Below are positions 6,434 to 21,359 of a stretch of DNA of 22,598 nucleotides, piece after piece (position 1 is the first letter of the stretch; each line of letters begins with the position of its first letter). The stretch is from a virus. The stretch lies in IMG/VR virus record IMGVR_UViG_3300042907_002520, positions 1-22,598 of that record, one strand, 5' to 3'. A program made the translations under genes and the position numbers. Below the pieces are notes generated by a model. That model worked only from the letters and a program-made list of their open reading frames with translations, searched no databases and was not told the origin of the DNA.

Positions 6434-6436
6434 ATT

Positions 6437-6444
6437 GATAAATA
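6437..6444 (-). promoter_or_regulatory. TATTTAT-type motif at gp14-like operon
   Basis: The minus strand reads TATTTATC, ending three bases before the ATG at 6433. If it is a -10-like promoter element, the transcript would have almost no leader. Same motif family as at 3924, 8626, 10189, 14503, 14920, 19771 and 21373. Confidence 0.35.
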
Positions 6445-6476
6445 CTTTACAGTTGATTATATTTAATCCAAAAATT

Positions 6477-6863
6477 ATGGTAATATATCCACCAACTAAA
6501 ATAAAACTTCAAAAAAGTAACACTCACGGGATTGGTGTTTTTTGTTCTAAACAAATATCGAGAGGTGAGATTATTGAACAATGTTCATTTTTGGTAATTC
6601 AAAATCACAGAAATAAACCACTTCACGTTTTCATTGACCATGCATATGTTTGGCCAAAATCTGTCAATTGGAGAGAATATGTGTTAGTTATGGGATATGG
6701 TTCATTTTATAATCATTCTTCTGAACCTAATGTCGATTGGGTAACAAAAGAAAACGAAAATATTTTCGAATATTTTGCAATAAAAGATATCAAAGAAGGA
6801 GAAGAACTTTTTATTAATTATGGAATGGAGATAAATTTTCCAATCAAAAAACCGAATGGATAA
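6477..6863 (+). CDS. SET-domain protein methyltransferase, 128 aa
   Basis: This is a compact SET domain, which transfers methyl from S-adenosylmethionine to a protein lysine. The three signature blocks are present: HGIGVF (17-22) for cofactor binding; GYGSFYNHSSEPN (73-85), the NHS-PN pseudoknot block; and GEELFINYG (108-116) with the catalytic-site Tyr115. There is no pre-SET or post-SET region, as usual for stand-alone bacterial and viral forms. I chose ATG 6477; the frame extends to a TTG at 6435, but the extra 14 residues are not SET-like and would start inside the divergent spacer. The last eight bases overlap the helicase start (ATGGATAA), so the two are translationally coupled. The substrate is unknown; phage, host ribosomal or nucleoid proteins are possible. 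No TATTTAT motif precedes it, suggesting different timing from virion genes. Confidence 0.87.
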   Translation: MVIYPPTKIKLQKSNTHGIGVFCSKQISRGEIIEQCSFLVIQNHRNKPLHVFIDHAYVWPKSVNWREYVLVMGYGSFYNHSSEPNVDWVTKENENIFEYFAIKDIKEGEELFINYGMEINFPIKKPNG

Positions 6864-8613
6864 AATAAGTTTAGAATCCAAAGCACTAATATTGTTGGAG
6901 TCCTATGATGGACCTAACAATTATTTGCTTGAACTAAAAAGAAAGTCACAAGTAAATAAAAAGTTTTACCCAACTAGGAGTCAATCTGAATATATAATTA
7001 ACAACCACGATAAAACCCCTAAGGTTGCCAAAAAGTGGATTATATTAGATTCATACTTTGCTCAAAAATTGGCAGATGACAAACTATACACGAACGTTCC
7101 CGAAAAAGTTTGGGTTGAAAAGTTATTAGCAGAAAAAGACAAGGCCTATCATATTTGGGGTAAAGTTTTTGAAACCGAACAACTCCACGACTTTTGGTTA
7201 CCCAAAGCATCAATAATAAAAGACAATACAGTAAAAGATGTTGTAATTGATTATGAAAAATATTCAAAAAGACCTCCGTTAACTCATCAGAGAGAAGCTA
7301 TCCAAAAATTAGTTGAAAATAAAAAATACATCTTGGCAGATGATATGGGTTTGGGAAAAACCACTTCAACAATAATTGCGGCTCTTGAATCTGGTGCAAA
7401 AAAAGTTTTAATCATTTGTCCGGCAACACTCAAAATAAATTGGAAGAGAGAGATTGAAAACTATTCTAACAAGTCAATTTATATTTGTGAAGGTAAAAAT
7501 TTTGAAGGGAACCATGATTTTGTAATAATAAACTATGATATAATAAAGAATTTTCATGACACTAAAAAGAAAGATGATTCGCAAATTCTTAGGGCCAATT
7601 TTGATTTGGTGGTTATTGATGAAGCACACTATATCAAAAATGCTCAAGCTCAGAGAACCAAACTCATAAATGATATTGTAAAAAAAGTTGACAGGTTGTG
7701 GTTATTAACCGGTACACCAATGACATCAAGACCTATAGATTACTTCAACTTGTTGAGTTTGATTGATTCTCCTGTTGCTAAAAATTGGATGGCTTATGTG
7801 ATTAGATATTGTTCGGGTTATCAATTTAGAGTTGGTCCAAGAAAAGTTTGGAATGTAATGGGGGCCTCAAATTTAGAAGAATTAAGAGATAGAACATCGA
7901 ACCTTACCTTGAGAAGATTAAAAGAAGATGTTTTAGATTTACCTGATAAAATTATTACACCCGTATATCTGAGATTAAAATCTAAAGAATACGAAGAGGT
8001 TATGGGCGAGTATTATAATTGGTATGAAAAAAACCCTGAAGAATCTAAATCATTGACGGTACAATTTACCAAACTAACCAAGGTTAGGCAAATAATTGCA
8101 GACGAAAAAATAAGTCAAACAATTGAATTGGCCGAAAATATTTTAGAACAAGATAAAAAGGTTATTATTTTTTGTAATTTCACAAACTCACTCAATAAAA
8201 TTACAGAGCACTTTGGAAAAACCGCAGTAAAACTTGATGGGTCTATGTCCAAACAAGAAAGACAATTTGCGGTAGACCAATTCCAAGAAAATGAAAAAGT
8301 TAAAGTTTTTGTTGGTAATATTAAAGCTGCTGGCGTGGGGATTACCTTAACATCTGCAGAAGCGGTTATCATGAACGACCTTTCATTTTTACCCTCAGAC
8401 CACTCTCAAGCAGAAGACAGAGCATATAGATATGGTCAAAAAAATAATGTACTTGTATATTACCCAATTTTTGAAAATACAATCGAAGGAATAATTTACG
8501 ACATATTAAATAACAAAAAACAAGTAATAGCAACCGTTATGGGTGACGTGTCAAATTCATCTGCCGATTACGTTGAAGAAATATTACAAAAAATAAATGA
8601 AATGCGACATTAA
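6856..8613 (+). CDS. SNF2-type DEAH-box helicase/translocase
   Basis: This is a two-lobed superfamily 2 ATPase of the SNF2 type, which moves along duplex DNA and remodels forks or branched DNA. Motifs are complete: Q-like THQREA (143-148), Walker A DDMGLGKT (162-169), Ia PATLKINW (189-196), DEAH (255-258), LTGTP (284-288), IV IIFCNF (437-442), V AAGVGITLTSA (491-501) and VI QAEDRAYRYGQ (518-528). Motif VI with its arginine finger and the RYGQ ending is characteristic of SNF2 proteins such as SMARCAL1. The first 130 residues are unrecognised and lack a zinc-binding pattern. The length of 585 is close to that of minimal phage SNF2 proteins. The likely role is replication or recombination of phage DNA (compare T4 UvsW, another SF2 helicase, as an analogue only). 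The start overlaps the SET gene by eight bases. No Shine-Dalgarno sequence. Confidence 0.93.
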   Translation: MDKISLESKALILLESYDGPNNYLLELKRKSQVNKKFYPTRSQSEYIINNHDKTPKVAKKWIILDSYFAQKLADDKLYTNVPEKVWVEKLLAEKDKAYHIWGKVFETEQLHDFWLPKASIIKDNTVKDVVIDYEKYSKRPPLTHQREAIQKLVENKKYILADDMGLGKTTSTIIAALESGAKKVLIICPATLKINWKREIENYSNKSIYICEGKNFEGNHDFVIINYDIIKNFHDTKKKDDSQILRANFDLVVIDEAHYIKNAQAQRTKLINDIVKKVDRLWLLTGTPMTSRPIDYFNLLSLIDSPVAKNWMAYVIRYCSGYQFRVGPRKVWNVMGASNLEELRDRTSNLTLRRLKEDVLDLPDKIITPVYLRLKSKEYEEVMGEYYNWYEKNPEESKSLTVQFTKLTKVRQIIADEKISQTIELAENILEQDKKVIIFCNFTNSLNKITEHFGKTAVKLDGSMSKQERQFAVDQFQENEKVKVFVGNIKAAGVGITLTSAEAVIMNDLSFLPSDHSQAEDRAYRYGQKNNVLVYYPIFENTIEGIIYDILNNKKQVIATVMGDVSNSSADYVEEILQKINEMRH

Positions 8614-8623
8614 CGAACTTCGG

Positions 8624-8641
8624 GTTATTTATAGAAATAAC
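8624..8641 (+). promoter_or_regulatory. Hairpin containing TATTTAT motif before SOD-fusion gene
   Basis: GTTATTT and AAATAAC form a perfect 7-bp inverted repeat with an ATAG loop, nine bases before the ATG at 8650. The left arm and loop contain TATTTATA (8626-8633). It could be a promoter element, or an mRNA hairpin near the start. There is no T-run after it, so it is not a classical terminator for the helicase gene. Confidence 0.35.
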
Positions 8642-8649
8642 TCAGTTAA

Positions 8650-10182
8650 ATGAAAAAAGTAGAAGAAAAAATTATACAACTCCAAAGCCAAATACTTGAA
8701 AGTAGAATTGAAACCGAAAAAGAGTTGTTACTAACAGAAATGAAAAAAATTGGAATAGAAAAACTTCCATATTCCTATTCAGCCTTGAAACCATTTATCG
8801 ATTCAGAGACAATGGATTTCCATTATAACAAACATTATAAAGGTTATGTAGATAAGTTGAACGACGCTTTATCTAAAAAGAAATATGGTGACTTAGAATT
8901 AGAACAAATTATTAAAAACATAAGTCGTTACGATAAATCAATAAGAAACAATGCGGGTGGGGCCTTCAACCACGCACTTTTTTGGAATATGCTTTCACCC
9001 AAAACACAAAAGTTGACAGGTGAACTTTATAAAAAAATAACAAAGAAGTGGGGAACGTTTACCAACTTTAAAAAAGAATTTGAAACCGCAGCTAAAGACC
9101 GATTTGGTTCAGGATGGGTATGGTTAGTTTTAACCGCTAAGAACCAATTGAAAATTATGACTACTCCGAACCAAGACAATCCATTAATGAATATTATTGA
9201 TGGTGGTGGTTTTCCACTACTCGGTCTAGATTTATGGGAACATGCTTATTATCTGAAATACAGAAACAAGAGAGATGAATATATTTTAAATTTTTGGAAA
9301 GTAGTTAATTGGGATTTTGTTACCAAAATGTATGAATTAAGAACCCAAACGAAATTATTAGAATCCACAGAGTTTAGGAATGTTATTTCAGAACAAAAGA
9401 CCGCAAATTTTTGTGACGCCAAAGAGATTGTATATTACAAAGAACTTTTGAATCCATATAAAAATAAAAAATTTTATGAAGAAGAGGTTAGAAAAACATT
9501 GAAATCTGTATTTGGACAATTTTGGGTTGAGGAAACTAAAGATGAGATGTCCGGATTTTATGGAATAGAATCACCTGAAGGTAGGTCAATACTTAATAAC
9601 CTAAACAGCAATATTAATACTTTCTGTCTACTTGTTAAAGCCGTAAACAAAGAAATTGATAAAATCGGAAAATCAGATAAAAAGTTCGATTTCACGAAAA
9701 AAGAAAAGTCGAACATGAAAGAATTATCAAGATTTTTGAATGCTTTAGATTATTTCAAAACAAACATTTACACGAAAAAGAATCCTGATTTTGTAAATAT
9801 TGTAAACGTTCTTTTGATTTTGTGGGAAAGAGGGCAAAAAAGTGAAAGAAAAGTTGAAGAAAAACTACAAAATTATTTTGGCGAATCATCCAAAGTAACC
9901 AGATTTGGTAAACATGGGTCGAAAAAAGATGCTTTTGGCGGTGTAGATATTGTTATAAATTTAGATGGTGTTGATTACACCGGACAAATTAAACCTTTCA
10001 ACACCACAAAAACTGATGGTGATGAAATTGCTGTATTAGGTAATGCAAACTACGCAGATTACAAAACTGATTGGTTATTGTTTCATAATACCAAAACAGA
10101 CCAGATACTTATATTTGAAAATAAACCTATAGGTAGAAAGTACGTTTTTAAATTAAACTCGTTACTCCACGAAATAGAATAA
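8650..10182 (+). CDS. Mn/Fe superoxide dismutase fused to PD-(D/E)XK nuclease-like domain
   Basis: Residues 35-232 are a full Mn/Fe superoxide dismutase, which converts superoxide to oxygen and hydrogen peroxide. All four metal ligands can be placed: H58 (FHYNKHYKGY), H108 (FNHALFWNML), D194 and H198 (LDLWEHAYY); gateway Tyr66 is also present. NNAGG (100-104) and Q175 in NQDNPL match the Mn type rather than the Fe type. The first 34 residues form a coiled-coil-like helix. The remaining 280 residues are not part of any SOD. Their end looks like a PD-(D/E)XK nuclease core: a helix with SERKVEEKL (398-406), then FGGVDIVINL (429-438) with D433, then YTGQIK (443-448) with the Q-x-K variant and K448. 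One uninterrupted frame, so a real fusion. It lies between the helicase and the gp13-like gene; function could be DNA processing or a virion-packaged protective enzyme. The SOD call is strong, the nuclease call moderate. Confidence 0.85.
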   Translation: MKKVEEKIIQLQSQILESRIETEKELLLTEMKKIGIEKLPYSYSALKPFIDSETMDFHYNKHYKGYVDKLNDALSKKKYGDLELEQIIKNISRYDKSIRNNAGGAFNHALFWNMLSPKTQKLTGELYKKITKKWGTFTNFKKEFETAAKDRFGSGWVWLVLTAKNQLKIMTTPNQDNPLMNIIDGGGFPLLGLDLWEHAYYLKYRNKRDEYILNFWKVVNWDFVTKMYELRTQTKLLESTEFRNVISEQKTANFCDAKEIVYYKELLNPYKNKKFYEEEVRKTLKSVFGQFWVEETKDEMSGFYGIESPEGRSILNNLNSNINTFCLLVKAVNKEIDKIGKSDKKFDFTKKEKSNMKELSRFLNALDYFKTNIYTKKNPDFVNIVNVLLILWERGQKSERKVEEKLQNYFGESSKVTRFGKHGSKKDAFGGVDIVINLDGVDYTGQIKPFNTTKTDGDEIAVLGNANYADYKTDWLLFHNTKTDQILIFENKPIGRKYVFKLNSLLHEIE

Positions 10183-10188
10183 TAAGAA

Positions 10189-10196
10189 TATTTATT
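10189..10196 (+). promoter_or_regulatory. TATTTAT-type motif before gp13-like gene
   Basis: TATTTATT lies in the 18-base gap after the SOD-fusion gene and ends four bases before the ATG at 10201. It is in the gene's own direction, as with the other copies. Confidence 0.35.
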
Positions 10197-10200
10197 TGAT

Positions 10201-11328
10201 ATGGCAGTAATACCGGAACCAGAAAGAAGTAGAATATATACAAGAATTAAACATCTATTAGGTGCACCGCTCAGAAGTGTTGAGCTCACAGATGAAATGA
10301 TGGATTCACTAATGGAGTTATCTTTAGGTGATTATGAGGAATATGTTTTACAATGGTTAATTGATAGTCAATGGGTTAATTTGGTTAACCTAAATATGAG
10401 TGAAAAATCTGTAGCAAGAGCACTTGTGACAAGGACTATGGATTTTGAACAACAATTTGCATATTCATATTCAAAAATTGTAGGACTACAAACTATGGGT
10501 CCGTGGGTACTTAAAAAAGATTATTTTATTCTGAGTGCTAATACCCAGAATTATGAGATACCTGCTGGTAGAGAGGTAAACGAACTTTTATGGTTCTCTA
10601 ACCAACCATGGACAGCCTTTGGATTAGGTGGAATTGGTGGGTTCGGATTTGGTGGAATTGGTTTAGGTGCGACTGAAGCCGGTTACGCTCAAATGGGATA
10701 TCAAGGTTCTTATTTCATGATGTCAGGTTTTGACTATTTGATTAGAATGCAAGAAGCAAACATTTTGAATAGAATACTTGGTGGTTCGCTTACATATAGA
10801 ATTACAGGTTTACCTGACGGTAAGAAAAACATCTTTCTATACAACACACCAGGAGGAAGATTTGATTGGATGAATTACAGTCAATATGTTGGTAGAGCAG
10901 TATGGTATTGGTATTATGATGTAGGGCCTGACGACAGAGCTTCATGTTTAAAGGCAAACCCTGACATTATCAAGTTACCAACGGACGTACCTATCGAAGA
11001 TTTAAGTTGGGAGGATTTAAACGTTCCAGGACAACAATGGGTTAGGAGATGGTTCACCGCTTATTGTAAAGAAACATTATCAAGAGTACGTGGTAAGTTT
11101 TCAGGTAATTTGAAGACACCTGACTCCGAATTGCAGATGGATTATCAGAGTTTATCAACTGAAGCAAAAGACGAAAAAACAAAACTAATAGAAGAACTTA
11201 CCGGTGCTGAAGGATGGTTAACAAGATTGAGACCTGAAAAAGTAATGGAGAGGGAAGCTTTGATTGCAGAAAATCTGAACAAACAAATGAAATTCAGAGC
11301 AATGCCGAGACAAATTTATGTAATTTAA
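10201..11328 (+). CDS. Neck protein, T4 gp13-like (head completion)
   Basis: The C-terminal third matches the conserved block of T4 gp13, the ring that seals the filled head and docks the tail. It has QQWVRRWFTAYCKETLSRVR (279-298), GKFSG, a loop with the LQMDYQSLSTEAKDEK segment, and LIEELTGAEG, followed by a charged helix. The N-terminus has a helical DEMMDSLMELSLGDYEEYV segment, typical of connector adaptors that pack against the portal. The middle carries a Gly-rich loop (about residues 140-160, repeats of GGIGGFGFGG type), an insertion likely to be flexible. The length is 375 against about 309 in T4. A TATTTATT motif is four bases before the ATG. The next gene starts one base after its stop. 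Its T4 partners gp14 and gp15 are encoded on the opposite strand, 4-6 kb away. Confidence 0.8.
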   Translation: MAVIPEPERSRIYTRIKHLLGAPLRSVELTDEMMDSLMELSLGDYEEYVLQWLIDSQWVNLVNLNMSEKSVARALVTRTMDFEQQFAYSYSKIVGLQTMGPWVLKKDYFILSANTQNYEIPAGREVNELLWFSNQPWTAFGLGGIGGFGFGGIGLGATEAGYAQMGYQGSYFMMSGFDYLIRMQEANILNRILGGSLTYRITGLPDGKKNIFLYNTPGGRFDWMNYSQYVGRAVWYWYYDVGPDDRASCLKANPDIIKLPTDVPIEDLSWEDLNVPGQQWVRRWFTAYCKETLSRVRGKFSGNLKTPDSELQMDYQSLSTEAKDEKTKLIEELTGAEGWLTRLRPEKVMEREALIAENLNKQMKFRAMPRQIYVI

Positions 11329-11329
11329 T

Positions 11330-11665
11330 ATGGGAATAGTTAAATCAATACCTTCAAGAAGAATTATAAACGGAATACAGATTAATACATCTGAGATTTC
11401 CGTCGTATCGGAAAAAGAATACCGTACAAGCGGTGAAGCCTGTATTGTGGTAAGAGGAGTTGCCAGTTCAAAGGTTACTTTGGATTCATCAACCTCAGAC
11501 CACATTGTAGTAAAATCAATGACTCGTCTGACTATTGTACCTGATGCAGGTTTAATAGATGAAGAATACGATGAAATAGAAATGGATAAATTTGCCTGTG
11601 TTGAGTTTAGATACGTTGGGGGTAACTGGTATATCCTTTCATCAGACGGACTTAAACAATCCTAA
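11330..11665 (+). CDS. Small beta-rich protein, probably virion-associated
   Basis: I do not recognise the family. The 111-residue product is acidic, has no transmembrane segment or signal peptide, and alternates short hydrophobic strands (ISVVSEKEY, CIVVRGVASSKVTL, HIVVKSMTRLTIVPD, CVEFRYVGGNWYIL), suggesting a small beta barrel or sandwich. The ending FRYVGGNWYILSSDG is a pattern often seen at the end of small phage structural domains. It begins one base after the gp13-like gene, so it is co-transcribed with a neck gene and probably has a head or neck decoration role. Its 3' end overlaps the DNA polymerase 3' end by 24 bases on the opposite strand, with no visible terminator between them. 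Confidence 0.7.
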   Translation: MGIVKSIPSRRIINGIQINTSEISVVSEKEYRTSGEACIVVRGVASSKVTLDSSTSDHIVVKSMTRLTIVPDAGLIDEEYDEIEMDKFACVEFRYVGGNWYILSSDGLKQS

Positions 11666-14440
11666 TTTTTCTTCCCACCCTTCTTCCGCCAACTGATACA
11701 TGTAATCAGGACTTAGACCTCTTTTTTTCCAATACTCAAGTTCTAATTCTGTTATATCTAACACATCCTCTTGCAACTTGTCTTGGTCACCTTCTTCAAA
11801 AGGCATACCATTAATTAACTCACATTGTTCATTAGTGAATATTCCTCTTTCTGCCGGGTCTGATACTAACAACAAGTCACGTACATCTTGTTTGAACACG
11901 ACTAACAAAGGCTCAATTCTTTTGTTAAACGTAACAATTGCTCTCGGTACGTTATATTCACCTGTCATGTTGGGATTGGTTTCCAATATATTAGCATCCA
12001 ACATATAACAGTTTACAACAACTCCTTCATTAATTTCTTTCGCCTTTGGATTATCAAACTTTTGTAATTGATTATAATCTTTTATTTGCTTAGCAGTCAT
12101 TTTCTGTACGTCACCTTGAGAAGCCTTTTTACCGTTATTTACGTACATAATAACATCACCTAAGTTAACACTTAAGTTTTGTTGAATTGCAAGTTCCATG
12201 TGTGCCATACGAGACATAGAATTACCTGCCTTGGTTTTTTGGGTTAACCTTTTTTTATAGTCATCCAAGGTGAGTTTTACTTTCGCCCTTTGTGCAATCT
12301 GTGATAAAGGTATTTGTTGGTCGAATATTTTTTGAAGGTACTCGTAATAATATTCTATGAATTCCTTACCCTCTCCTTTCAATAAAAGTTTAATTCCCTT
12401 ATCTAAAAAAGTTTCAATATATAATGGAAGTTTCTTAGATTTTATAGAATTGCCAGTCAATTTTATCTTTCCTTTAGCGTCCATAACCGCGTAATTTTTT
12501 CTGGCAAGATTTATACATGATGGCCAAACACCATCAGTGTCAAGCGCCATTTCACCTCTCATGAATATATCATTGTACTCTGCAACATCAGCATCAGGTC
12601 CTGTATATTCTTTACCCACCTTAACTTTCCAGTTCAAACCACGACCAACATATTTTCTTTCATCAACACCTTCTGGACTTGAGAAGTTCACGCCATCCGT
12701 ATCCATAACCAAAGGAGTATAACCCTTACTCATAAAGTACTTAATCATCTGACGTAGGTATTGACGACCAGTACATGTAATTTGCTCACCCATGTACATG
12801 TCCCCCCACGCATAGACCTGAGGTGCCGACAACGCACCGAACATTGAGTTAATAAAAATCTTAATCGGTAATTGTTTATTGGAGTATGATGATGAAAGGG
12901 ATGGGTCTGTCTTTTCGTACTGCTCCGCCAACTGTTTATATTTAATACGAGTATCACGGAAATATTTTAACATTCCTTTCATTGCTCCAGTCACATCACA
13001 ATCAGGAAAAACATCATGTACAAGTTGAATAGAGGGGTATAGAGACGAGAAGTCGAGTTTAAGTACATTCTTACTATAACCTACCTTTAGTAGTCGAGAA
13101 AGACCTCCTACGAAGTCAGTTTTGTCTTGTTTAGCTGGAATGGCAAGTCCGTGTTTGTATGACCATGCAAGCATCAACATCTTCCAAAGAGTTGCAGTAC
13201 CCATAGTGGAAACTCTCTCATAAGTTGTAGGAATCATTGCTGCTAGCAAAAATGAACCCTGATTAAACTCCTTATCGACAGCTAAAGTTTCCTCCAAGTC
13301 ATCGTCAAGATATCTCTCAACTAAGTTATCACCAGTTGTTTTTATATAGACATCATCCCTTTTTTCGCAAACCAAATCCACTTTTGAATCCTGTCCAACC
13401 TTTTTATATTTTCCATTTTGTATATTCAACCAATATTCTTCTTTGTTTGCATACATCTTACCAATGTCTGTATGGTCGATGTATACACGGTCAGGTGCTT
13501 CTTTACCTATAAAAGTGGTGATATATTTAAGACCCGCAGATTTAATGTTGGAATTAATTGCTTGAGCCCTACGAACCGCATGAATAATATCGATAGTATT
13601 ATACCCCCAAATAGAGGTTTGTGTAAATTCTTCAACTTCGTTGGCAAGTTTTAGAATGGTTTCTTTTCTTGTATATGAATGTTGTGGATGTAAGGATTTT
13701 ACAGTTTTTCTCATATCAATACCCAATCGTTGAGCACGTTCAAAAATCCAATGCCAGTCGAAGTTCGCTGAGTTATAACCACCGATAATTGATGGTTTGA
13801 GTTGGTCAATCACATTAAGGAATTCTATGATGGCACCTTTTTCTTGGTCCTCATTCAAACACTCAATAACTCTATGATATCCTTTATTTGTCTTAATTCC
13901 AATCATAAAGATTCTACCATCTTTGGGGTCAAGAGCATTTGTTTCCAAGTCAAATACTAATCTTGTGACATCATCATAATCAGTAAATCCTTTGAATAAT
14001 CTTTTCTCCTTTGCAATAAGATATTGTTCTACGGGCGGAAGAATTGAAATCTTGTCTTTCATTTTATCCCCCCATGGGTCACAGCCACCGTCTCTGAAAA
14101 ATTGGATTAATTCTCTGTACCCTTTTAAGGATTTAACCATGAAAGTTAAACCTTTCTGTAATCTCTCGTTACCCTTGGTTTCCAATTTCTCGATAACAAT
14201 TCCATACTTTGTCATGGCCTCTTTTTGAGCCATCTTAGAATCATTGTAGAAATTAAGACCCCTTAGGTCACCAACCCAAGCAAATGGGATAAATGTATCT
14301 TTTCTTATTTCTTTACCCTTACCAGGTATTTCTTTGATTTTGTAAATTGAGTTTGATACGTAGTCAAATTCGATTGCAACTATAAACTCTTCAGGGTCGT
14401 TTCCATGAAGAAACGATTCGATTTCTTGATAACTATTCAT
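11642..14440 (-). CDS. Family B DNA polymerase with 3'-5' exonuclease
   Basis: This is the replicative polymerase of the phage. Exonuclease motifs: Exo I FDLET (D164, E166), Exo II NSANFD (N223-D228), Exo III YLDDD (Y377-D381). Polymerase motifs: A LDFSSLYPS (D463), B KIFINSMFG (K527, N531), and C MDTDG (D580, D582). All catalytic carboxylates for both activities are present. Motif B has F where Y is usual (NSMFG for NSxYG), and motif C has Gly where most have Ser (DTDG for DTDS); both are tolerated in phage polymerases. The 932 residues compare with 898 in T4 gp43. The C-terminal tail (YQLAEEGWEEKLGLF) is a plausible sliding-clamp peptide. The leader of 95 bases carries a TATTTATT motif and a palindrome. 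The gene lies between fibre genes and a convergent neck block, not in an obvious replication cluster. Confidence 0.96.
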   Translation of the reverse strand: MNSYQEIESFLHGNDPEEFIVAIEFDYVSNSIYKIKEIPGKGKEIRKDTFIPFAWVGDLRGLNFYNDSKMAQKEAMTKYGIVIEKLETKGNERLQKGLTFMVKSLKGYRELIQFFRDGGCDPWGDKMKDKISILPPVEQYLIAKEKRLFKGFTDYDDVTRLVFDLETNALDPKDGRIFMIGIKTNKGYHRVIECLNEDQEKGAIIEFLNVIDQLKPSIIGGYNSANFDWHWIFERAQRLGIDMRKTVKSLHPQHSYTRKETILKLANEVEEFTQTSIWGYNTIDIIHAVRRAQAINSNIKSAGLKYITTFIGKEAPDRVYIDHTDIGKMYANKEEYWLNIQNGKYKKVGQDSKVDLVCEKRDDVYIKTTGDNLVERYLDDDLEETLAVDKEFNQGSFLLAAMIPTTYERVSTMGTATLWKMLMLAWSYKHGLAIPAKQDKTDFVGGLSRLLKVGYSKNVLKLDFSSLYPSIQLVHDVFPDCDVTGAMKGMLKYFRDTRIKYKQLAEQYEKTDPSLSSSYSNKQLPIKIFINSMFGALSAPQVYAWGDMYMGEQITCTGRQYLRQMIKYFMSKGYTPLVMDTDGVNFSSPEGVDERKYVGRGLNWKVKVGKEYTGPDADVAEYNDIFMRGEMALDTDGVWPSCINLARKNYAVMDAKGKIKLTGNSIKSKKLPLYIETFLDKGIKLLLKGEGKEFIEYYYEYLQKIFDQQIPLSQIAQRAKVKLTLDDYKKRLTQKTKAGNSMSRMAHMELAIQQNLSVNLGDVIMYVNNGKKASQGDVQKMTAKQIKDYNQLQKFDNPKAKEINEGVVVNCYMLDANILETNPNMTGEYNVPRAIVTFNKRIEPLLVVFKQDVRDLLLVSDPAERGIFTNEQCELINGMPFEEGDQDKLQEDVLDITELELEYWKKRGLSPDYMYQLAEEGWEEKLGLFKSV

Positions 14441-14535: not shown

Positions 14536-14916
14536 TTAGCAACAAGCAGTTTCAGAAATAAAACTATCTTGGACATTAATATAAAGTTCTTCACGGATTG
14601 GTAGAATCAAGTTTCCTTCATCATTCTTGATTAAAAATTGTCCTTGGTATCTACCTACAGTATCGGTATTCCTCGAAGTAAATTTATAGTAAATATAGTA
14701 CTCAGTGGGAGCACCTAGTTCAAGATTTGTTAGTGCAACTATTTCACAAGGTGCAGAAACAATTTTCGGAACACCGGTATAATAATCAACCATAGTAAAA
14801 TATATTGTCGATACTTCGAGTGATTCCATGAATGCAATATAGTCGGACCTACCATCCTGTACCACTTGCATTTTTAATATTGGTAACGTAGCATTCTTTT
14901 TGATGAAAAATTCCAT
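14536..14916 (-). CDS. BppU N-terminal-like baseplate/fibre protein, 126 aa
   Basis: The sequence follows the pattern of the BppU N-terminal domain, an Ig-like fold that docks receptor-binding parts onto phage baseplates. A start of FFIKKNATLPILKMQVV (3-19), a strand VSTIYFTMVD (35-44), a central YYIYYKF strand (73-79), DTVGRYQGQFLI (84-95), then GNLILPIREELYINVQDSF (101-119). In known members the same order is xTLPxLxxxLxDxxG, VxFxM, the DTxxxGxYxxxF block and a terminal proline-rich strand. The protein ends in two cysteines. It is the last gene of the right-hand minus-strand run, 16 bases after the stop of the fusion glycosyltransferase, with its own TATTTATT motif and a perfect inverted repeat over the start. 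Baseplate or fibre attachment is likely. Confidence 0.65.
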   Translation of the reverse strand: MEFFIKKNATLPILKMQVVQDGRSDYIAFMESLEVSTIYFTMVDYYTGVPKIVSAPCEIVALTNLELGAPTEYYIYYKFTSRNTDTVGRYQGQFLIKNDEGNLILPIREELYINVQDSFISETACC

Positions 14917-14937
14917 AACAATAAATATATTGTTATG
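14914..14937 (-). promoter_or_regulatory. Perfect 10-bp inverted repeat over BppU-like start codon
   Basis: CATAACAATA and TATTGTTATG are exact reverse complements around a four-base AATA spacer. The repeat spans the ATG at 14916-14914, the upstream stop codon at 14933-14935, and contains TATTTATT on the minus strand at 14927-14920. It may be an operator, or an RNA hairpin that hides the start codon. Confidence 0.45.
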
Positions 14938-16603
14938 ACTCTTTACGAAGCGACCTATCGTAATGTTCGAATCTATCGTGTTCGGTAGGGGTAATTAAAA
15001 GTAAACCAGAAAATAATTCTCCCTTTTTAACGAGTTGGTACATATAACTCATCCAAGTTTGTTCAAACGGATGTGCCCAAGTTGTATCCAAAAACATTTT
15101 CTTACTTCCTGGTTTGGTTACAACTTGTGGCCAGTTACAATAATAAACCTCACCTGTTGCATAAGGTATTTGTTTGTGAGACAAAATCTTATTGAACTCT
15201 GTTTTAGGAGCGTTCGGGTCTAACCCAATTTGAGGTAATCTAGGTTTACCTGGCCAAAACTTAGACCTTACATCTTGTGGTACATTATACCAAGACCATT
15301 GAGTCCCATTATCACCGAAAAATTCTGAGTAGTTTAATTTTAAAAAATCAAAATTTTCTTTTTTACTGATTTCCAAAGATTTTTGATATATGTTTTTGAC
15401 ATACCTATTGAATCCGTTTCTACAAATGGTTTCTTTTCCGTTATAAAAAAACATATCGTCTTCGAAAAAGAACATAAAATCATGCCCTGTGTTTTCAAAA
15501 TGTTCGGCAATCCACTGTCTTCCCCCACAAATCCCTAAATTATCTTTTTTAATATGTTCAAAACCATGTTCATCACAAAGTTTCTGATATTCATCGAAAG
15601 TTGAATCATCAGTTGAATTATTTAAAAGATATTTTTTTGGTTTATTTAGAAAATCTGAATCATAATCTTGCATTGATTGAATCAAGGTACGGAATTGATT
15701 TGGACTGTTAAAAGTTATTACGTAAACACCGACGTTGTTTAAATCCAAGTTATTGTTCGAATTTACAACCGTCTCTGATTTAGTAATCAAATTATCATTT
15801 TTCAAATCTTCGAAAAACTTTCCTATTAAACCATTACCCTCAATTTCAAAGTAATTTATAATGTCAGAATGTTTATAACACATTATTGAAAATATAGATT
15901 CTTCAGTTCCCATATAACCCTCGTCCAAAGTTGTTTTCAAAAGGCCGTAATAGATTCCATTTATCTCACCAATAGTATCTTTTGGCCCTCCAAAAAAACC
16001 CCCACGAGCAACTTTATTTACTTTTGCTCCCGCTAGTTCATTTAACCTATTATATTCAAAACCGTGAATTTCCTTTTCTGCACCATATGGGAAACAAATA
16101 AACGAAAACTTGGAGATATATTTTTCTAATTTATCTAAAACTTTATCATGAGTAAAATAACCAGGGTGTACTGTATTTGTTAAACCACCATCAATCCAAA
16201 ACATGTATTGTGAATTGAATTTGTCCATAATCTTAGCGTCGTGAAGTAAAAAAACTTTAGACATTACTAAGGGGTTATACATCTCTAGTTTCGCTTGTGT
16301 AGAATCCTTTAACCACCCAACTTGATTGGTCCACTCTGTATCAGTTCTTATTTTTTGAATTTGATTATAAAATTCATTTTTGAACCACGACAAAGGACGA
16401 TTAATGAACTGAGTGTTTGATTTACTTCTTTTTTTAAAAACAAACTCTTCGAGTTCTTCTTCTCCAAAAATTATCAAATTAGCATCAACGTCTAATAGCT
16501 TATCAAACTTTTCTAAATAATGAGAAAATGGTCTTGCCCATCCTTCAGACAATCCATCCCTCCCTATATTCCAAATTCCCGTAACTAAAGTTATATTACT
16601 CAT
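14933..16603 (-). CDS. Two-domain glycosyltransferase: HtrL/YibB-like plus GT2-like
   Basis: The first 265 residues are of the HtrL/YibB (WlaTC) type: ITLVTGIWNIGR near the start, YNPLVMSKVFLL (109-120), FWIDGGL (135-141), GGFFGGPKD (201-209) and GTEESIFSIM (232-241). After a linker (roughly 270-290, SNNNLDLNN) a second domain begins with VGVYVITFNSPNQFRTLIQS (291-310), KYLLNNSTDDSTF (324-336), a DNLGICGGRQW segment (354-364) and the acidic metal site FFFEDDM (378-384). That is a GT-A fold of the GT2 kind. The enzyme would transfer sugars from nucleotide donors; donor and acceptor are unknown. It is the last of four overlapping glycosyltransferase-type genes; its start overlaps the previous gene by eight bases. 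Its N-terminal half is a paralogue of the upstream gene. Confidence 0.8.
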   Translation of the reverse strand: MSNITLVTGIWNIGRDGLSEGWARPFSHYLEKFDKLLDVDANLIIFGEEELEEFVFKKRSKSNTQFINRPLSWFKNEFYNQIQKIRTDTEWTNQVGWLKDSTQAKLEMYNPLVMSKVFLLHDAKIMDKFNSQYMFWIDGGLTNTVHPGYFTHDKVLDKLEKYISKFSFICFPYGAEKEIHGFEYNRLNELAGAKVNKVARGGFFGGPKDTIGEINGIYYGLLKTTLDEGYMGTEESIFSIMCYKHSDIINYFEIEGNGLIGKFFEDLKNDNLITKSETVVNSNNNLDLNNVGVYVITFNSPNQFRTLIQSMQDYDSDFLNKPKKYLLNNSTDDSTFDEYQKLCDEHGFEHIKKDNLGICGGRQWIAEHFENTGHDFMFFFEDDMFFYNGKETICRNGFNRYVKNIYQKSLEISKKENFDFLKLNYSEFFGDNGTQWSWYNVPQDVRSKFWPGKPRLPQIGLDPNAPKTEFNKILSHKQIPYATGEVYYCNWPQVVTKPGSKKMFLDTTWAHPFEQTWMSYMYQLVKKGELFSGLLLITPTEHDRFEHYDRSLRKES

Positions 16604-17477
16604 ATATTCTATTGAATTCTTCTAATATTCTATAAAAACTTTTATTTTCTTCAAACAATTTAGGATTTGTTCCTGGCGGACAATTGTCAGGACACCACCA
16701 AATGTCAAAATGTTTTCTAACAAAAAGGTCTGGGTCGTTATGCCACATTACAGTCATGAGAACTTCTTCGTGATGTACCCTTTCTTCAGGAGTAATCTTG
16801 TACGCATAATCTTCGAATAAAGTTACAACATCATCCCACAAATCTTTATGACCACCAAAGAGACCACCTATAACATGAATCTTTCTTTGATAATTTTTAT
16901 ACCATTTTGGGTTAACTGTACCTGACCAATAATTTCTATCGTTATCCTTTCCTAATATAAGAAACTTTCCTTCAGTGTCTTCGACTAAATTTTTAAGAAA
17001 ATCATTGTTGAATAAATTACTTTCGTAGTATTTTCCTTGTGGATGGTCACTTCCTACTAAGTACTTATTAGGTATAAGTCCGCAATGTGATAAACCAGCA
17101 TCAATCCAAAAATAATAATCGTAGGATTTATCCTCTAACCACCACCAACCAAACTTGGACCATTGAATTTCAATACATCTGTCCCCTGTTTTTGCGCTTT
17201 CATAATCTTTATATTTCAATAATAATTCTTGATATTTTGTTTGACGTAAATCAAAAACTTTGAATTCTAATTTTTGTGGTGAAACTCCGTGAGATTCATA
17301 AAAAAACCTTTGTAATCTTTCTATTTCTCTGTCAGAAGTATAACAAAGAAAATCTGCGTCGGTCATTTTCAAAAGTGATAATAAACTGTATTGATAATGG
17401 CCTCCTCTTGATGGTCTTCCTCCAATTTCAGTCCCCGATAAATCACTATAAATGCAAGTAATAAATTTAACTTTCAT
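16596..17477 (-). CDS. HtrL/YibB-like putative glycosyltransferase
   Basis: A 293-residue cytoplasmic-type protein sharing the core of the HtrL/YibB family: KVKFITCIYSDL at the start, YYFWIDAGLSHCG (121-133), a GGLFGGHKDLW block (204-214) and HHEEVLMTVMWHNDPDLF (235-252). These align one for one with FWIDGGL, GGFFGGPKD and GTEESIFSIMCYKHSDI in the next gene. The family is placed among glycosyltransferases of surface polysaccharides (the Campylobacter WlaTC proteins are in such loci), but activity of most members is inferred. The WID element is the likely metal/donor site. It overlaps the GT25 gene by 11 bases and the fusion gene by eight, so all are read from one transcript. Confidence 0.75.
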   Translation of the reverse strand: MKVKFITCIYSDLSGTEIGGRPSRGGHYQYSLLSLLKMTDADFLCYTSDREIERLQRFFYESHGVSPQKLEFKVFDLRQTKYQELLLKYKDYESAKTGDRCIEIQWSKFGWWWLEDKSYDYYFWIDAGLSHCGLIPNKYLVGSDHPQGKYYESNLFNNDFLKNLVEDTEGKFLILGKDNDRNYWSGTVNPKWYKNYQRKIHVIGGLFGGHKDLWDDVVTLFEDYAYKITPEERVHHEEVLMTVMWHNDPDLFVRKHFDIWWCPDNCPPGTNPKLFEENKSFYRILEEFNRIYE

Positions 17478-18198
17478 ATGTGTATTCTATATGTTGATTT
17501 GATTTTTTTAATTGAGACATACTGTTAAAATCATAACAATTATTTGGAACTTTAACTGGTGAATACAAATTCCAATTATATGTCTGTGCATAGTAATTAT
17601 TATAGTTACCACCTGAAACATCAGACCAACCTGATTGTTGTGGTCCAATTGGTAGTATTGGACAATAACTTTGATGCTTTGACATTATTTCTCTATAAAT
17701 GTAATCATCGATGGCATAATAACCTTCTTTCCAAGGTTCGGTCATTTCCAGAACTCTATCATAGATTGAATGATGGTACATAATCATATTTGTGGCAAAA
17801 ATACCACGTTCATGTTCTTTAGCGGGTGGTAAATTTGTTAGGTCTATCAATAAAGGATATTTTTCACTTCTGTTGACAGGTCTAGCAAGTGTTGGAGCAA
17901 GGTTAAAAACACCCCACTCAAATTCACCGATTTCTTCGATTTGTTTAATCAAAGATTTGGCATAAGGCATTATCACACAATCGTCTTCTATTACTAAAAT
18001 ACTTTCATACCCTTTTTCTTTTGCTTCTTTGATTAATGTGGTGTGTGAACGAGTACACCCAACATGACTGTTTGTATCGACCGCTTTAAAATGTTCGTAA
18101 TCCCAACCAATGTATTCCATTTCTTTAACAATGGATTCTAATCTGTCGGGTCTTCTTTCAAGATTTACTACGAACTTTGGTATTGAATTAAATTTCAT
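17467..18198 (-). CDS. Glycosyltransferase family 25 (LPS-type)
   Basis: The 243-residue protein has the GT25 hallmark order: VNLERRPDRLESI (11-23), a helix, AVDTNSHVGCTRSHTTLIKE (39-58) where GCxxSH is the family block, and ILVIEDDC (67-74), the acidic metal motif. Members add galactose or related sugars to lipooligosaccharide in bacteria, and animal relatives modify hydroxylysine of collagen. The size is that of a complete single domain. The C-terminal 40 residues are Tyr/Asn-rich. The start overlaps the stop of the GT60-like gene as TAATG. In this setting it most likely extends a glycan begun by the upstream enzyme, though modification of host LPS cannot be excluded. Confidence 0.88.
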   Translation of the reverse strand: MKFNSIPKFVVNLERRPDRLESIVKEMEYIGWDYEHFKAVDTNSHVGCTRSHTTLIKEAKEKGYESILVIEDDCVIMPYAKSLIKQIEEIGEFEWGVFNLAPTLARPVNRSEKYPLLIDLTNLPPAKEHERGIFATNMIMYHHSIYDRVLEMTEPWKEGYYAIDDYIYREIMSKHQSYCPILPIGPQQSGWSDVSGGNYNNYYAQTYNWNLYSPVKVPNNCYDFNSMSQLKKSNQHIEYTYES

Positions 18199-19463
18199 TA
18201 ACTTACGTGATTGTGGTTTAGTTGTCCTGTAATTCTATCACACCACCCTTTAGATTCGGAGTGTGGCCAAACCACCCAATACTTCGGTAAAACATCCGTT
18301 TGAAACTCTCTCCATATTTTACAATATTTGTCAGGGTCTCTGAAGTATCCCGCAATTTCATTTTTATCAGAATCTCTTCTATATATAGTTTCATCATTTG
18401 GACCATGGAATGCTACCACCCAAAAGTCATAGTCCTTTTCAGGTACTTGAGAATATCCAATATCTATACAATGTTTGTAAACGGAAGCAAAATCTTTTTT
18501 CCAATCTTCTTCTGTTTCGTAATTGTAAGGGTTAGGAGGATAATTTTTATCCAAAGTATATTTTTGAACCGCTCTTTTTTCAAATAATAACCCAGAGTAT
18601 TTTTCATAATCTCTTAAAGTTCTTACAGAACCAAACCCATATGGACCGTCATGGCCTTCTTGAGTTTCGCCATCCATACCAAAGAGTTTTCTATTTGTTA
18701 AATGTGAGTGTTTGTTTTTGTCGCCCCAAGTTCTATCATCGTCCCACTGTTTTGTTCTACCCTTACGTGTATACTCATGATATACCACAGGTATGTGTGG
18801 ATGGAATAAATCATATCCCCAAGTGTAAGCCCTTGCCGCAATTGATATTTCTTCACCGTGGAAATAATATTCAGGATTGTGTTGAACTTCTTTTGAAAAC
18901 TCTCCCAAGGTAAAACAGAAGTGTGCGGAATAAAACCTAGCAGTAACAGGTTTTGTCATTTCTCTCCAGCCTGGAATTGTTTCAGGTAAGAAAAACACTG
19001 CACCTTCAGGAATAAATCTATCAAAAACCATCCTCCACGCATCCTGTGCTCTTCCCGCAGGGTCATTATCAGGGTCAAAGGAGGGTACATAACCCGTAAG
19101 TAGAGGTTTTTTATACCCATCCTTTTGAAGACCCTTTATCATTTTGATTAGGATGTCGTCCCAATCTTTTACAAATCTCATATGTGAATCAATTTGTAGT
19201 GTATAACTTTCACCACTATATAGTTGTTGAACTTGATGTCTCGCCCAACAAACTCCTTTGGCTTCCTGATATGGTATATCTAAAATTTTAAATCTTTTAT
19301 CTTTTCTGAACTCGTCTAAATTATCAAAACCGTCGGTTTCGGAATATTGTCTTGCAATACCTAAAACCAAGTTTTTTGGTTTTTTTGCATTTTCCAACAT
19401 ATTTTTTATGGTTGTTAGAAGTTGTGGGTCACGATAAGATGCAATCTGAACAAATATTTTCAT
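18198..19463 (-). CDS. GT60-like polypeptide GlcNAc-transferase (Skp1-GlcNAcT family)
   Basis: The N-terminus IFVQIASYRDPQLLTTIKNM (3-22) is the signature of the GlcNAc-transferase family that includes Dictyostelium Skp1 GlcNAc-transferase and Trypanosoma mucin O-GlcNAc-transferases (CAZy GT60). Further family elements are KGVCWARHQVQQLY (69-82), YTLQIDSHMRFVKDWDD (87-103) with the D-x-H metal motif at 92-94, an HGEE block (about 222-225), and a WGYD/H-E-Y region near 235-252. In known members the acceptor is Ser, Thr or hydroxyproline of a protein, with alpha-GlcNAc as the first sugar. The C-terminal 90 residues (FHGPNDETIYRRDSD onward) are an extra domain I do not recognise. It is the first gene of the glycosyltransferase operon, directly after a terminator and next to a Thr-rich mucin-like protein, the obvious candidate substrate. 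Confidence 0.87.
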   Translation of the reverse strand: MKIFVQIASYRDPQLLTTIKNMLENAKKPKNLVLGIARQYSETDGFDNLDEFRKDKRFKILDIPYQEAKGVCWARHQVQQLYSGESYTLQIDSHMRFVKDWDDILIKMIKGLQKDGYKKPLLTGYVPSFDPDNDPAGRAQDAWRMVFDRFIPEGAVFFLPETIPGWREMTKPVTARFYSAHFCFTLGEFSKEVQHNPEYYFHGEEISIAARAYTWGYDLFHPHIPVVYHEYTRKGRTKQWDDDRTWGDKNKHSHLTNRKLFGMDGETQEGHDGPYGFGSVRTLRDYEKYSGLLFEKRAVQKYTLDKNYPPNPYNYETEEDWKKDFASVYKHCIDIGYSQVPEKDYDFWVVAFHGPNDETIYRRDSDKNEIAGYFRDPDKYCKIWREFQTDVLPKYWVVWPHSESKGWCDRITGQLNHNHVS

Positions 19464-19480
19464 TGAATGTATTTTGTATG

Positions 19481-19514
19481 AAAAATAAAAAACCCTCCAC
19501 GAAAGTAGAGGGTT
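19481..19514 (-). terminator. Rho-independent terminator between fibre genes and glycosyltransferase operon
   Basis: On the minus strand AACCCTC and GAGGGTT pair, extended by an inner AC/GT pair after one mismatch, with a TTTC loop, then TTTTTTATTTTT. It lies 26 bases past the stop of the 71-residue protein and 17 bases before the GT60-like start, so the glycosyltransferases need a promoter of their own in 19464-19480 or read-through. I see no clear promoter there. Confidence 0.85.
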
Positions 19515-19540
19515 ATTAATTTTATTGATAAAAGTTTTTT

Positions 19541-19756
19541 TTATGATTCGGGCGGAAAAACTCCTTCGTCTGTTAATACTATGGATGTATCAAAAGCTTC
19601 TGCCACTGTGTAAGTACCATCTATTAACCAAATTGTTTTAGTTTGGTCTGAAGATAAGGGCACTTGATATTCCCAAAGAGCATCATCACATCTTTGATAA
19701 CTGAAATTAACTTCAGTTTCTCCTGTGTTCGTTAAAATATATTTACTACATGCCAT
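19541..19756 (-). CDS. Stand-alone copy of mucin-like fibre N-terminal domain, 71 aa
   Basis: The whole protein matches residues 1-71 of the mucin-like protein encoded just upstream: 49 of 71 positions are identical by hand count, including MxCSK, ILTNTG, YQRC, YQVPL, QTKTIW, IDGTY and DEG-FPP. It stops exactly where the neighbour's Thr/Pro linker begins. It is probably a small beta domain (alternating strands, two conserved Cys) that attaches to the virion. It may occupy the same docking sites without a repeat arm, as a cap or as a length or valency control, or be the remains of a duplicated fibre gene that lost its arm. Its own TATTTATT motif lies 14 bases before the ATG, and a strong terminator follows. 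No recognised family. Confidence 0.8.
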   Translation of the reverse strand: MACSKYILTNTGETEVNFSYQRCDDALWEYQVPLSSDQTKTIWLIDGTYTVAEAFDTSIVLTDEGVFPPES

Positions 19757-19770
19757 AATTTGTGTTTTTT

Positions 19771-19778
19771 AATAAATA
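19771..19778 (-). promoter_or_regulatory. TATTTAT-type motif before 71-aa protein
   Basis: The minus strand reads TATTTATT, 14 bases before the ATG at 19756, in the 40-base gap after the mucin-like gene. Confidence 0.35.
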
Positions 19779-19796
19779 GTTGTTTGTCATAAAAAA

Positions 19797-21359
19797 TTAT
19801 GATGGTGTTGGTGTAGAAGTTGGTGTTTCAGTAGGAGTAGATGTTAAAGTTTCAGTTGGTGTGGAAGTTGGTGTTTCAGTAGGAGTTGGTGTCTCAGTTT
19901 CAGTAGGAGTAGATGTTAAAGTTTCGGTAGGTGTAGAAGTTGGTGTTTCAGTAGGAGTAGATGTTAAAGTTTCGGTAGGTGTAGAAGTTGGTGTTTCAGT
20001 AGGAGTGGATGTTAAAGTTTCAGTTGGGGTAGGAGTTGGTGTCTCAGTTTCAGTAGGAGTAGATGTTAAAGTTTCAGTAGGTGTAGAAGTTGGTGTTTCA
20101 GTAGGAGTTGTGGTTGGTGTAGAAGTCGGCGTTGGAGTCACCTCACATAACTCAATTGAATCGATATATCCTGTTCCTCCTGTTATCACATATACATTTG
20201 TTCCATCTGAATAATATCCATCTGATGCATAAAACGCAGGGTCTGCAGCATAATCAGTGTAAATATGGTCTCCAACTATCAAAGATTCGCCAGGTATTTG
20301 ATAATAATCAGTTGCGATATTAGTACAAGCCTCGTTAGGGTCTGTAAAACTATAACCCAAAGGTACTATTGTTGGATTGTGTAACGATGGGTCTGTGCAA
20401 GTCCCTATATAGCTTATAGAACCGTCACCTGAAAGTACAATTGCGCTATCGTAGTTACCACAATAGATTGCACTCCAAGATGGAACACCATTCATTTGAA
20501 TTGTGTTACCCGAACAATCTAAAAATTCAAATAAAGGTGCTGCTGGTCCATTATATGAAAAAGATATTTCCGAACAACTCTCAACTATATCTGTTGGAGT
20601 AGGTGTATTTGTTGGGGTTTGTGTTGCAGTTTCAGAAGGTGTAACCGTTGGTGTTGATGTAGGTGTTTCAGTTGGTGTTGATGTAGGTGTTTCTGTCATT
20701 GTTGGTGTTGGAGTTGGTGTAGGTCCACAATTTCCATAAGTAACAATTGTTGCTCCTGTGACACAACCAACTCCACATCCACCGTTCAAATAATATATAA
20801 CATTATCTTCTACATAATAACCAATTGGGTCACCTGTGTTAGGCCCAACTAGGTCAGTCCATGCTAATGTAGAATTTGCAAAACTTGTTCCATTAACAAA
20901 TATTGACGCCACTTGTTGACAATCACAGGCTTCTTGAGCTGTATTTTCGTTATGACAAATATTAAACAATTGTGTTCTCACAACATTTGTTGGTGTTGGA
21001 GTTTGTGTGGGAGTGGAAGTTGGAGTTTCAGTGTTAGTTGGTGTTGATGTAATTGTCGGAGTTTGGGTATTACTTGGAGTTATAGAAGGGGTTGGGGTGT
21101 TAGATGGTGTTGGAGTTGGGGTGACAGAAGACGGTGTTGGTGATGGTTCTGCCGGTGGAAACTCACCTTCGTCAACCAACGAAACTGAAAATTCAAATGA
21201 TTCTGAAATTTGATACGTACCATCAATAACCCATATTGTTTTAGTTTGTCCTATAGATAGTGGTACCTGATATACCCAAAGAGCGTCAGAACACCTTTGA
21301 TAATTAAAATTAATTTCTGTACTACCGGTATTTGTTAAAATGAATTTACTACAAGACAT
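19797..21359 (-). CDS. Mucin-like Thr/Pro-repeat fibre protein, 520 aa
   Basis: Domains in order: an N-terminal domain (1-69) shared with the 71-residue neighbour; a Ser/Thr/Pro linker (71-125); a Cys-containing domain (126-212); a second Thr/Pro linker (213-257); a Cys-rich domain (258-325) and a domain (about 340-407) related to 126-212; and a 113-residue C-terminal tail (408-520). In the tail every second residue is Thr, alternating with Pro, Glu, Ser or Leu. The tail has ten octapeptide units TETPTSTP or TETLTSTP in near-perfect tandem. Such sequences are extended, disordered and classic targets for O-glycosylation. There is no signal peptide or membrane segment, which fits a virion protein. 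I start at ATG 21359, because MSCSK aligns with the neighbour's MACSK; a TTG at 21383 would add eight unrelated residues. TATTTATT lies 13 bases upstream. Likely a flexible, glycosylated host- or mucus-contact fibre. Confidence 0.85.
19800..20138. repeat. Coding tandem repeat, 24-base units (Thr/Pro tail)
   Basis: Ten 24-base units encode TETPTSTP or TETLTSTP, often alternating as a 48-base unit. They are broken twice by a TETETPTP-type spacer. Units differ only by a few silent or Pro/Leu changes, so copy number could shift by slippage or recombination. Shorter, less regular Thr/Pro-coding tracts lie at 20589-20723 and 20985-21149. Confidence 0.9.

Follow-up and report, generated by a model that had tools for sequence, protein, structure and literature searches.

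Several described systems share features with the locus considered here, a group of overlapping glycosyltransferase (GT) genes next to a gene for a Thr/Pro-repeat protein in a 22,598-nucleotide stretch of viral DNA (IMG/VR record IMGVR_UViG_3300042907_002520; by the window we mean this 22.6-kb stretch at its full length). In Trypanosoma cruzi, the initiating enzyme is likewise of the PF11397/GT60 type, a uridine diphosphate N-acetylglucosamine (UDP-GlcNAc):polypeptide alpha-GlcNAc-transferase that acts on Thr-dense acceptors, the Tc-mucins, and on the Thr-run peptide KPPTTTTTTTTKPP (PMC3769586), with later GTs elongating the glycan; however, this system operates in the secretory pathway of a eukaryote and yields surface mucins with a glycosylphosphatidylinositol anchor, whereas the window enzyme is phage-encoded and presumably cytoplasmic, and its activity is predicted. 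The polypeptide N-acetylgalactosaminyltransferases (ppGalNAc-transferases) of animals have the fold of our GT60 model, a DxH motif and acceptors of the Pro/Thr/Ser-rich (PTS) type but belong to another CAZy family, GT27, are located in the Golgi and show only about 10-17% identity in structural alignments, and the phage GT60 protein is without a lectin domain. The streptococcal serine-rich repeat glycoproteins, such as the bacterial adhesin Fap1, differ in depending on an unrelated initiating enzyme, GtfA/GtfB, and on SecA2 export. As proposed for the present locus, their repeat protein is O-glycosylated step by step in the cytoplasm by GTs devoted to it (PMC5063993). Among viruses, phage-encoded GTs and glycosylated virion proteins are reported for mycobacteriophages and for phage XacN1 (PMC5852040; Freeman 2023 as cited in PMC12619734), although the mycobacteriophage sites, in the latter account, are C-terminal in capsid and tail-tube proteins and do not form long Thr repeats. 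Chlorella virus PBCV-1 also glycosylates a virion protein with GTs of its own (work cited in PMC5852040), but this is a eukaryotic algal virus and the substrate is a folded capsid protein that is not mucin-like. The initial annotation of the window, made from the letters alone, knew of no described phage system of this design; with virion glycosylation of phages known already, this holds for the mucin-type design only, of which our literature searches (phage mucins, TP repeats, GT60 in phages) retrieved no description.

The window is a fragment of a T4-like myovirus, a freshwater jumbo phage, and encodes a tail sheath protein, a head-tail adaptor, an SNF2-type helicase and a family-B DNA polymerase. 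Among its tail and neck genes there is, in our view, likely a phage-encoded mucin-type O-glycosylation module, transcribed from the minus strand in the order 389-aa protein (no function assigned), 520-aa Thr/Pro protein, 71-aa protein, GT60, GT25, 293-aa protein, 556-aa HtrL_YibB protein, 126-aa protein and DNA polymerase (Table 1). The four adjacent GT-type genes pointed out in the initial annotation indeed overlap, by 1, 11 and 8 bases, and the assignment of the first of them to GT60 is borne out by a match to PF11397 (GlcNAc, GT60-type) of 224.6 bits (E = 3.3e-66; cut-off 21) and by a DxH motif that is invariant in an alignment of 21 GT60 sequences, DxH in place of DxD being common to GT27 and GT60 (PMC7185993). 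The AlphaFold model of the enzyme (pLDDT 88, pTM 0.82) is a GT-A fold near GT27: in a Foldseek comparison with the PDB, ranks 1-34 were all ppGalNAc-transferases, with 6e4r the best (E = 1.6e-10, TM about 0.5). The defining activity of GT60 is transfer of GlcNAc to Thr, Ser or hydroxyproline of a polypeptide; the donor of the window enzyme would most likely be UDP-GlcNAc.

The presumed acceptor is translated from the ATG at 21359, a start supported by homologues that open with MSCSK or MACSK. Its C-terminal tail is as first described: within the last 113 residues, Thr occupies every second position 56 times running, whereas 10,000 shuffled versions of the protein never exceeded a run of 14. 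Mucin PTS domains are recognized as segments of at least 100 aa with more than 40% Ser/Thr and more than 5% Pro; the best 100-aa segment of this protein has 61% Ser+Thr and 21% Pro, that is, the composition of a mucin PTS domain. The N-terminal domain is common to many Thr-tract proteins of the clade (47 distinct versions after clustering at 85%) and yields a confident, mostly-beta model (pLDDT 89), for which known structures offered no characterized match, only unnamed or uncharacterized phage proteins at E > 0.001. Likewise, neither this domain nor the modules between the tracts had an informative match among isolate phages and structures, and profile searches with the whole protein gave no Pfam or NCBIfam match and no likeness to a known fibre or virion-attachment domain. 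The label of a fibre is unproven because the N-domain resembles no characterized domain.

Downstream of GT60, the second enzyme matches GT25 (Pfam, 2e-11), and the 556-aa protein matches HtrL_YibB (PF09612, 2.6e-17) at its N-terminus and has only weak GT matches in its C-terminal half; since it scores below the TIGR02192 equivalog cut-off, it is a relative of YibB rather than YibB itself. The 293-aa protein between them has no family match in the profile search, and its only likeness to the HtrL protein consists of two weakly matching motifs (E = 0.006); a sequence search of the PDB with the GT60, HtrL and GT25 proteins returned nothing useful. Among relatives, the slot between GT60 and HtrL is occupied by different genes, including fucosyltransferases of families GT10 and GT11, a polysaccharide pyruvyltransferase, a sulfotransferase, FkbM and other methyltransferases and a carbamoyltransferase, and from its gene content looks like a swappable cassette for decorating a glycan.

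A first scan found relatives of the GT60 gene on 366 IMG/VR contigs, and one based on alignment found them on at least 592 stretches, but only three isolate phages have such a gene, XacN1, RAS14 and CM1. Among the 80 nearest loci (GT60 identity 85-100%), each of the 69 with at least 1 kb upstream has a co-directional Thr-rich open reading frame (ORF) within 1.5 kb upstream of GT60 (the median gap is 81 bp, and 64 of the ORFs are no more than 300 bp away), and all 161 Thr-rich ORFs of this set lie on the GT60 strand, with none downstream. When related loci are anchored on the polymerase, the order is Thr/Pro protein, GT60, variable genes, HtrL, 126-aa protein, polymerase. In the tracts of related loci the Thr codons are mixed (ACT 43%, ACA 42%, ACC 9%, ACG 6%); one parity is 97% Thr/Ser, a figure partly imposed by the definition of a tract, and the other is Pro (41%), Asn (14%), Gln (9%), Glu (8%) and others; Lys and Arg are scarce in the tracts. 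Tract sequence and length differ even among close loci and the interspersed residues vary freely with Thr/Ser kept (for instance, TNTQTQT); given this freedom and the use of all four Thr codons, the tracts resemble an array of acceptors in which the hydroxyl is kept, not a slipping DNA repeat. That the tract is an artefact of an opposite Val/Gly frame is ruled out by the strand of the ORFs, the mixed codons and the conserved N-domain. Large ORFs with GTTGTSG or GTNGTSG repeats, seen upstream of GT60 on the same strand in three loci (L003, 3-3680; L632 and L633, 2-3418), are possible further acceptors without proline.

More distant comparisons extend the pairing. A divergent set of 71 loci, each having at least 3 kb of upstream sequence, was selected on GT60 similarity alone; for most of them, identity to the window GT60 is about 53-75%. 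Of these, 39 have a strict alternating Thr/Ser-Pro tract within 10 kb, as opposed to none of 80 random viral loci; 16 of the 32 clusters formed at 75% GT60 identity have such a tract, and HtrL is present in 55 of the 71 loci. A viral contig of interest, L550, encodes a Thr/Ser-Pro ORF, directly downstream of it an 871-aa ORF (9986-12598) with tandem GT60 domains, then HtrL. The initial annotation had held that GT60 phages without any Thr-repeat protein would refute the mucin reading; Thr/Ser-Pro alternating proteins are encoded in all 12 large GT60-positive viral records examined, among them XacN1 with some 15-18 Thr-rich ORFs such as ORF369, ORF370, ORF372 and ORF384. RAS14 and G004, which at first looked like exceptions, turned out on reading to have Ser-substituted tracts. 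In a pattern search, nine of ten GT60-positive records had 97-284 matches (in the tenth, G004, the pattern missed the Ser-rich tracts), compared with none in ten and 2-3 in three of 13 isolate jumbo relatives lacking GT60 (RaK2, CBB, Atu_ph07, SCTP-2 and others); this isolate comparison, essentially of one clade with its relatives, is the only one of our controls that is matched for lineage. The reverse test started from 31 contigs, each 50 kb or longer, that were retrieved solely by a (Thr-x)10 DNA pattern, which occurred in 0 of 26 random contigs: PF11397 was present in 10 of the 31 (32-86% identical to the window GT60) and in none of the 26, and HtrL in 7 of these 10, in 0 of the 21 without GT60 and in 0 of 16 random contigs.

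Counterparts exist in bacteria, where GT60-HtrL pairs adjoin Thr/Ser-Pro proteins in contigs of metagenome-assembled genomes of Saprospiraceae and Gemmatimonadota. In a Saprospiraceae contig (L203, locus at 8507-13089) that is chromosomal by its neighbours (UvrB, NAD kinase, Omp85, OmpA), GT60 and a Thr/Ser-Pro repeat protein stand back to back, with HtrL beside and a sulfotransferase beyond; the repeat protein has a type IX secretion system (T9SS) sorting domain and a twin-arginine-like signal, read by eye, and the locus is a possible O-glycosylation system for surface proteins in bacteria. A second contig (L204) is arranged similarly. In a Gemmatimonadota contig (L207), where genes for a tRNA synthetase and a peroxidase are adjacent, GT60 is immediately preceded by a PqqD-like protein whose tail is of the SP/TP type. 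GT60 is rare in the class Bacteroidia, exceeding the PF11397 cut-off in 4 of 395 class genomes and 5 of 398 genomes of the L203 family, with several borderline cases.

From gene content, synteny, co-occurrence, fold and motif, we infer an acceptor, a donor, an order of action, a virion location and a role that can be cast in the following scenario. The cytoplasm of the infected cell would supply the most likely donor, UDP-GlcNAc; GT60 would seed a sugar, most likely GlcNAc, at many Thr and Ser positions along the alternating tracts; extension or decoration of the glycan would fall to the HtrL_YibB-type enzyme and to a variable set of enzymes, made up in the window of GT25 and the 293-aa protein and in relatives of fucosyl-, sulfo-, pyruvyl-, carbamoyl- or methyltransferases; and the product would be an extended, stiff, hydrophilic, sugar-clad protein that probably joins the virion, most likely in the tail region or at the surface. 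We consider it quite likely that GT60 glycosylates the Thr/Ser tracts; the proposal of the initial annotation that it starts the glycan on the Thr tail, backed by co-occurrence, synteny, fold and the bacterial loci, is thus retained, with the amendment that the acceptor may be Thr/Ser and not Thr alone. The conjunction of this activity with a place of the Thr protein in the virion is somewhat more probable than the contrary. Protease shielding, surface variation and adhesion as roles for the sugar-clad protein are speculation, and the shielding, mimicry or lectin binding proposed in the initial annotation are likewise no more than possible roles.

Several observations weigh against this scenario. 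A glycan on any Thr-tract protein is still a prediction from sequence, and GT25 and HtrL_YibB are best known from lipopolysaccharide (LPS) clusters. Among the divergent loci, 32 of 71 have no strict tract within 10 kb and about 24, a third, have no Thr-rich ORF at all in that range (some eight of the tract-less loci have Thr-rich ORFs of other types, TTTTT, GTNGTSG or TATPTSTP); 21 of the 31 Thr-tract contigs are without GT60, although these contigs are fragments; and among isolates the evidence comes from a single clade (XacN1, RAS14, CM1). In two genomes of the L203 family, Saprospiraceae (G551:C13 and G665:C20; loci L554 and L555), proteins of about 1,530 aa, each containing a pair of distant GT60-like domains (about 30% identity), have no Thr/Ser-Pro neighbour; they probably have a different function, and the pairing therefore belongs to this branch of GT60, not to all PF11397 proteins. 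Finally, the XacN1 glycoproteins are reported without their identity in the text of PMC5852040.

Could the GT genes instead modify phage DNA, through hypermodified bases, or glycolipids of the host envelope, with the Thr-rich proteins being unmodified spacers that are adjacent by chance? Most characterized phage GTs do target DNA or host surface glycans, the LPS loci that contain GT25 and HtrL_YibB are compatible with such a role, and so are the weak matches of the C-terminal half of the HtrL protein to TAGT and beta-glucosyl-hydroxymethylcytosine-alpha-glucosyltransferase and the carbamoyltransferase between GT60 and HtrL in XacN1-type phages. Yet adjacency to Thr tracts is kept across viral lineages and bacterial contigs, and the GT60 model is structurally nearest to polypeptide O-GalNAc transferases, so that we regard this explanation as unlikely; that Tet_JBP was not detected in 11 GT60-positive records is a weak negative, as no control gave a match.

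A still less probable alternative is that the Thr proteins are glycosylated but never enter the virion, serving as secreted or intracellular decoys whose glycan acts in the infected cell, as might be suggested by the lack of a characterized structural relative of the N-domain and by the export of the bacterial counterpart, with its T9SS sorting domain, to the surface. However, PMC5852040 reports at least two glycoproteins from XacN1 virion proteomics (raw data deposited as PXD008065), and its authors proposed the phage GTs ORF328 and ORF334 as a possible cause. We find that ORF334 is a GT60 relative and that the Thr-rich ORF369-372 of XacN1 directly follow the tail sheath and sheath-stabilizer genes, and the genes of the window likewise sit in a tail and neck neighbourhood. 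The least probable alternative, that GT60 acts like Skp1 GnT1 on hydroxyproline of Pro-Thr tracts after a phage prolyl hydroxylase, draws on the modification of Skp1 hydroxyproline by the founding GT60 members, on Pro as the commonest in-between residue and on 2-oxoglutarate-Fe(II) oxygenases in three genomes of the window clade that were examined, but as a general rule it is not supported, given that the PF13640 oxygenase is lacking in 6 of 9 GT60-positive records tested (XacN1, RAS14, G001-G004), those of the window clade are not adjacent to GT60, and the constant residue of the tracts, such as TNTQTQT, is Thr/Ser rather than Pro.

If mucin-type O-glycosylation by the phage is real, mucin-like proteins with dense O-glycans also occur outside eukaryotes and the viruses of eukaryotes, with scaffold and enzymes alike encoded by phages. 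A likely substrate would then be in view for the hundreds of phage GT60 genes that are at present classed as moron or auxiliary genes, the HtrL_YibB family of 'unknown function' would gain a testable role, and phage GTs, usually presumed to act on DNA, would be reframed. Bacteria could also be equipped to produce mucin-type glycoproteins by means of a compact enzyme-substrate pair that works in the cytoplasm. A broader generalization, to which we give about even chances, is that a widespread prokaryotic form of mucin-type O-glycosylation combines a GT60 initiator with a ppGalNAcT-like fold, HtrL_YibB and a swappable cassette on Thr/Ser-Pro proteins, which in jumbo phages would produce glycan-coated virion appendages with a sugar that varies in serotype-like fashion and in a few bacteria exported surface proteins.

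Table 1. Features of the predicted glycosylation module and adjoining gene in the window
Feature	Position	Strand	Basis
Mucin-like Thr/Pro-repeat protein, 520 aa, presumed acceptor	19797..21359	-	ORF, tract and synteny analysis
N-terminal domain of the Thr protein, about 75 aa, predicted mostly-beta	21135..21359	-	homologue clustering, alignment, model
Alternating Thr/Ser-Pro tract 1, residues 78-125	20985..21128	-	sequence reading
Alternating Thr/Ser-Pro tract 2, residues 214-257	20589..20720	-	sequence reading
Tract 3, residues 408-519, 56 consecutive Thr at alternate positions	19803..20138	-	sequence and shuffles
Stand-alone N-domain paralogue, 71 aa, between Thr protein and GT60	19541..19756	-	homology, alignment
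GT60-type putative polypeptide O-glycosyltransferase (PF11397), DxH = D92-S93-H94	18198..19463	-	profile, alignment, model
GT25-family glycosyltransferase, putative elongation; variable among relatives	17467..18198	-	profile, locus comparison
Putative GT, 293 aa, weakly HtrL-like (YxFWIDxGL and GGxFGGxKD motifs)	16596..17477	-	motif matches
HtrL_YibB domain and C-terminal GT-like half; near GT60 in most relatives	14933..16603	-	profile, locus comparison
Conserved protein, 126 aa, between HtrL gene and DNA polymerase, without known function; candidate module member only	14536..14916	-	locus comparison

Start regions between 14900 and 21400 are AT-rich and without clear Shine-Dalgarno motifs, and the nearest cellular relatives of the GT60 protein are from Bacteroidota; for these two reasons, the host may be a bacterium of this phylum. 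Elsewhere in the window, a dual-specificity-phosphatase-like gene (5208-5918, minus strand) is inserted among the tail and neck genes and is shared by just 2 of the 80 related loci. A 142-aa SET-domain protein (6435-6863, plus strand; PF00856, 2.5e-16) is a candidate phage lysine-methyltransferase; 48 of the 80 related loci encode relatives of it. The gene at 8650-10182 (plus strand) encodes an Fe/Mn superoxide dismutase domain (PF00081/PF02777) fused to a C-terminal part of about 280 aa without a family, and the dismutase part is present in 65 of 80 polymerase-anchored relatives at a median identity of 81%.

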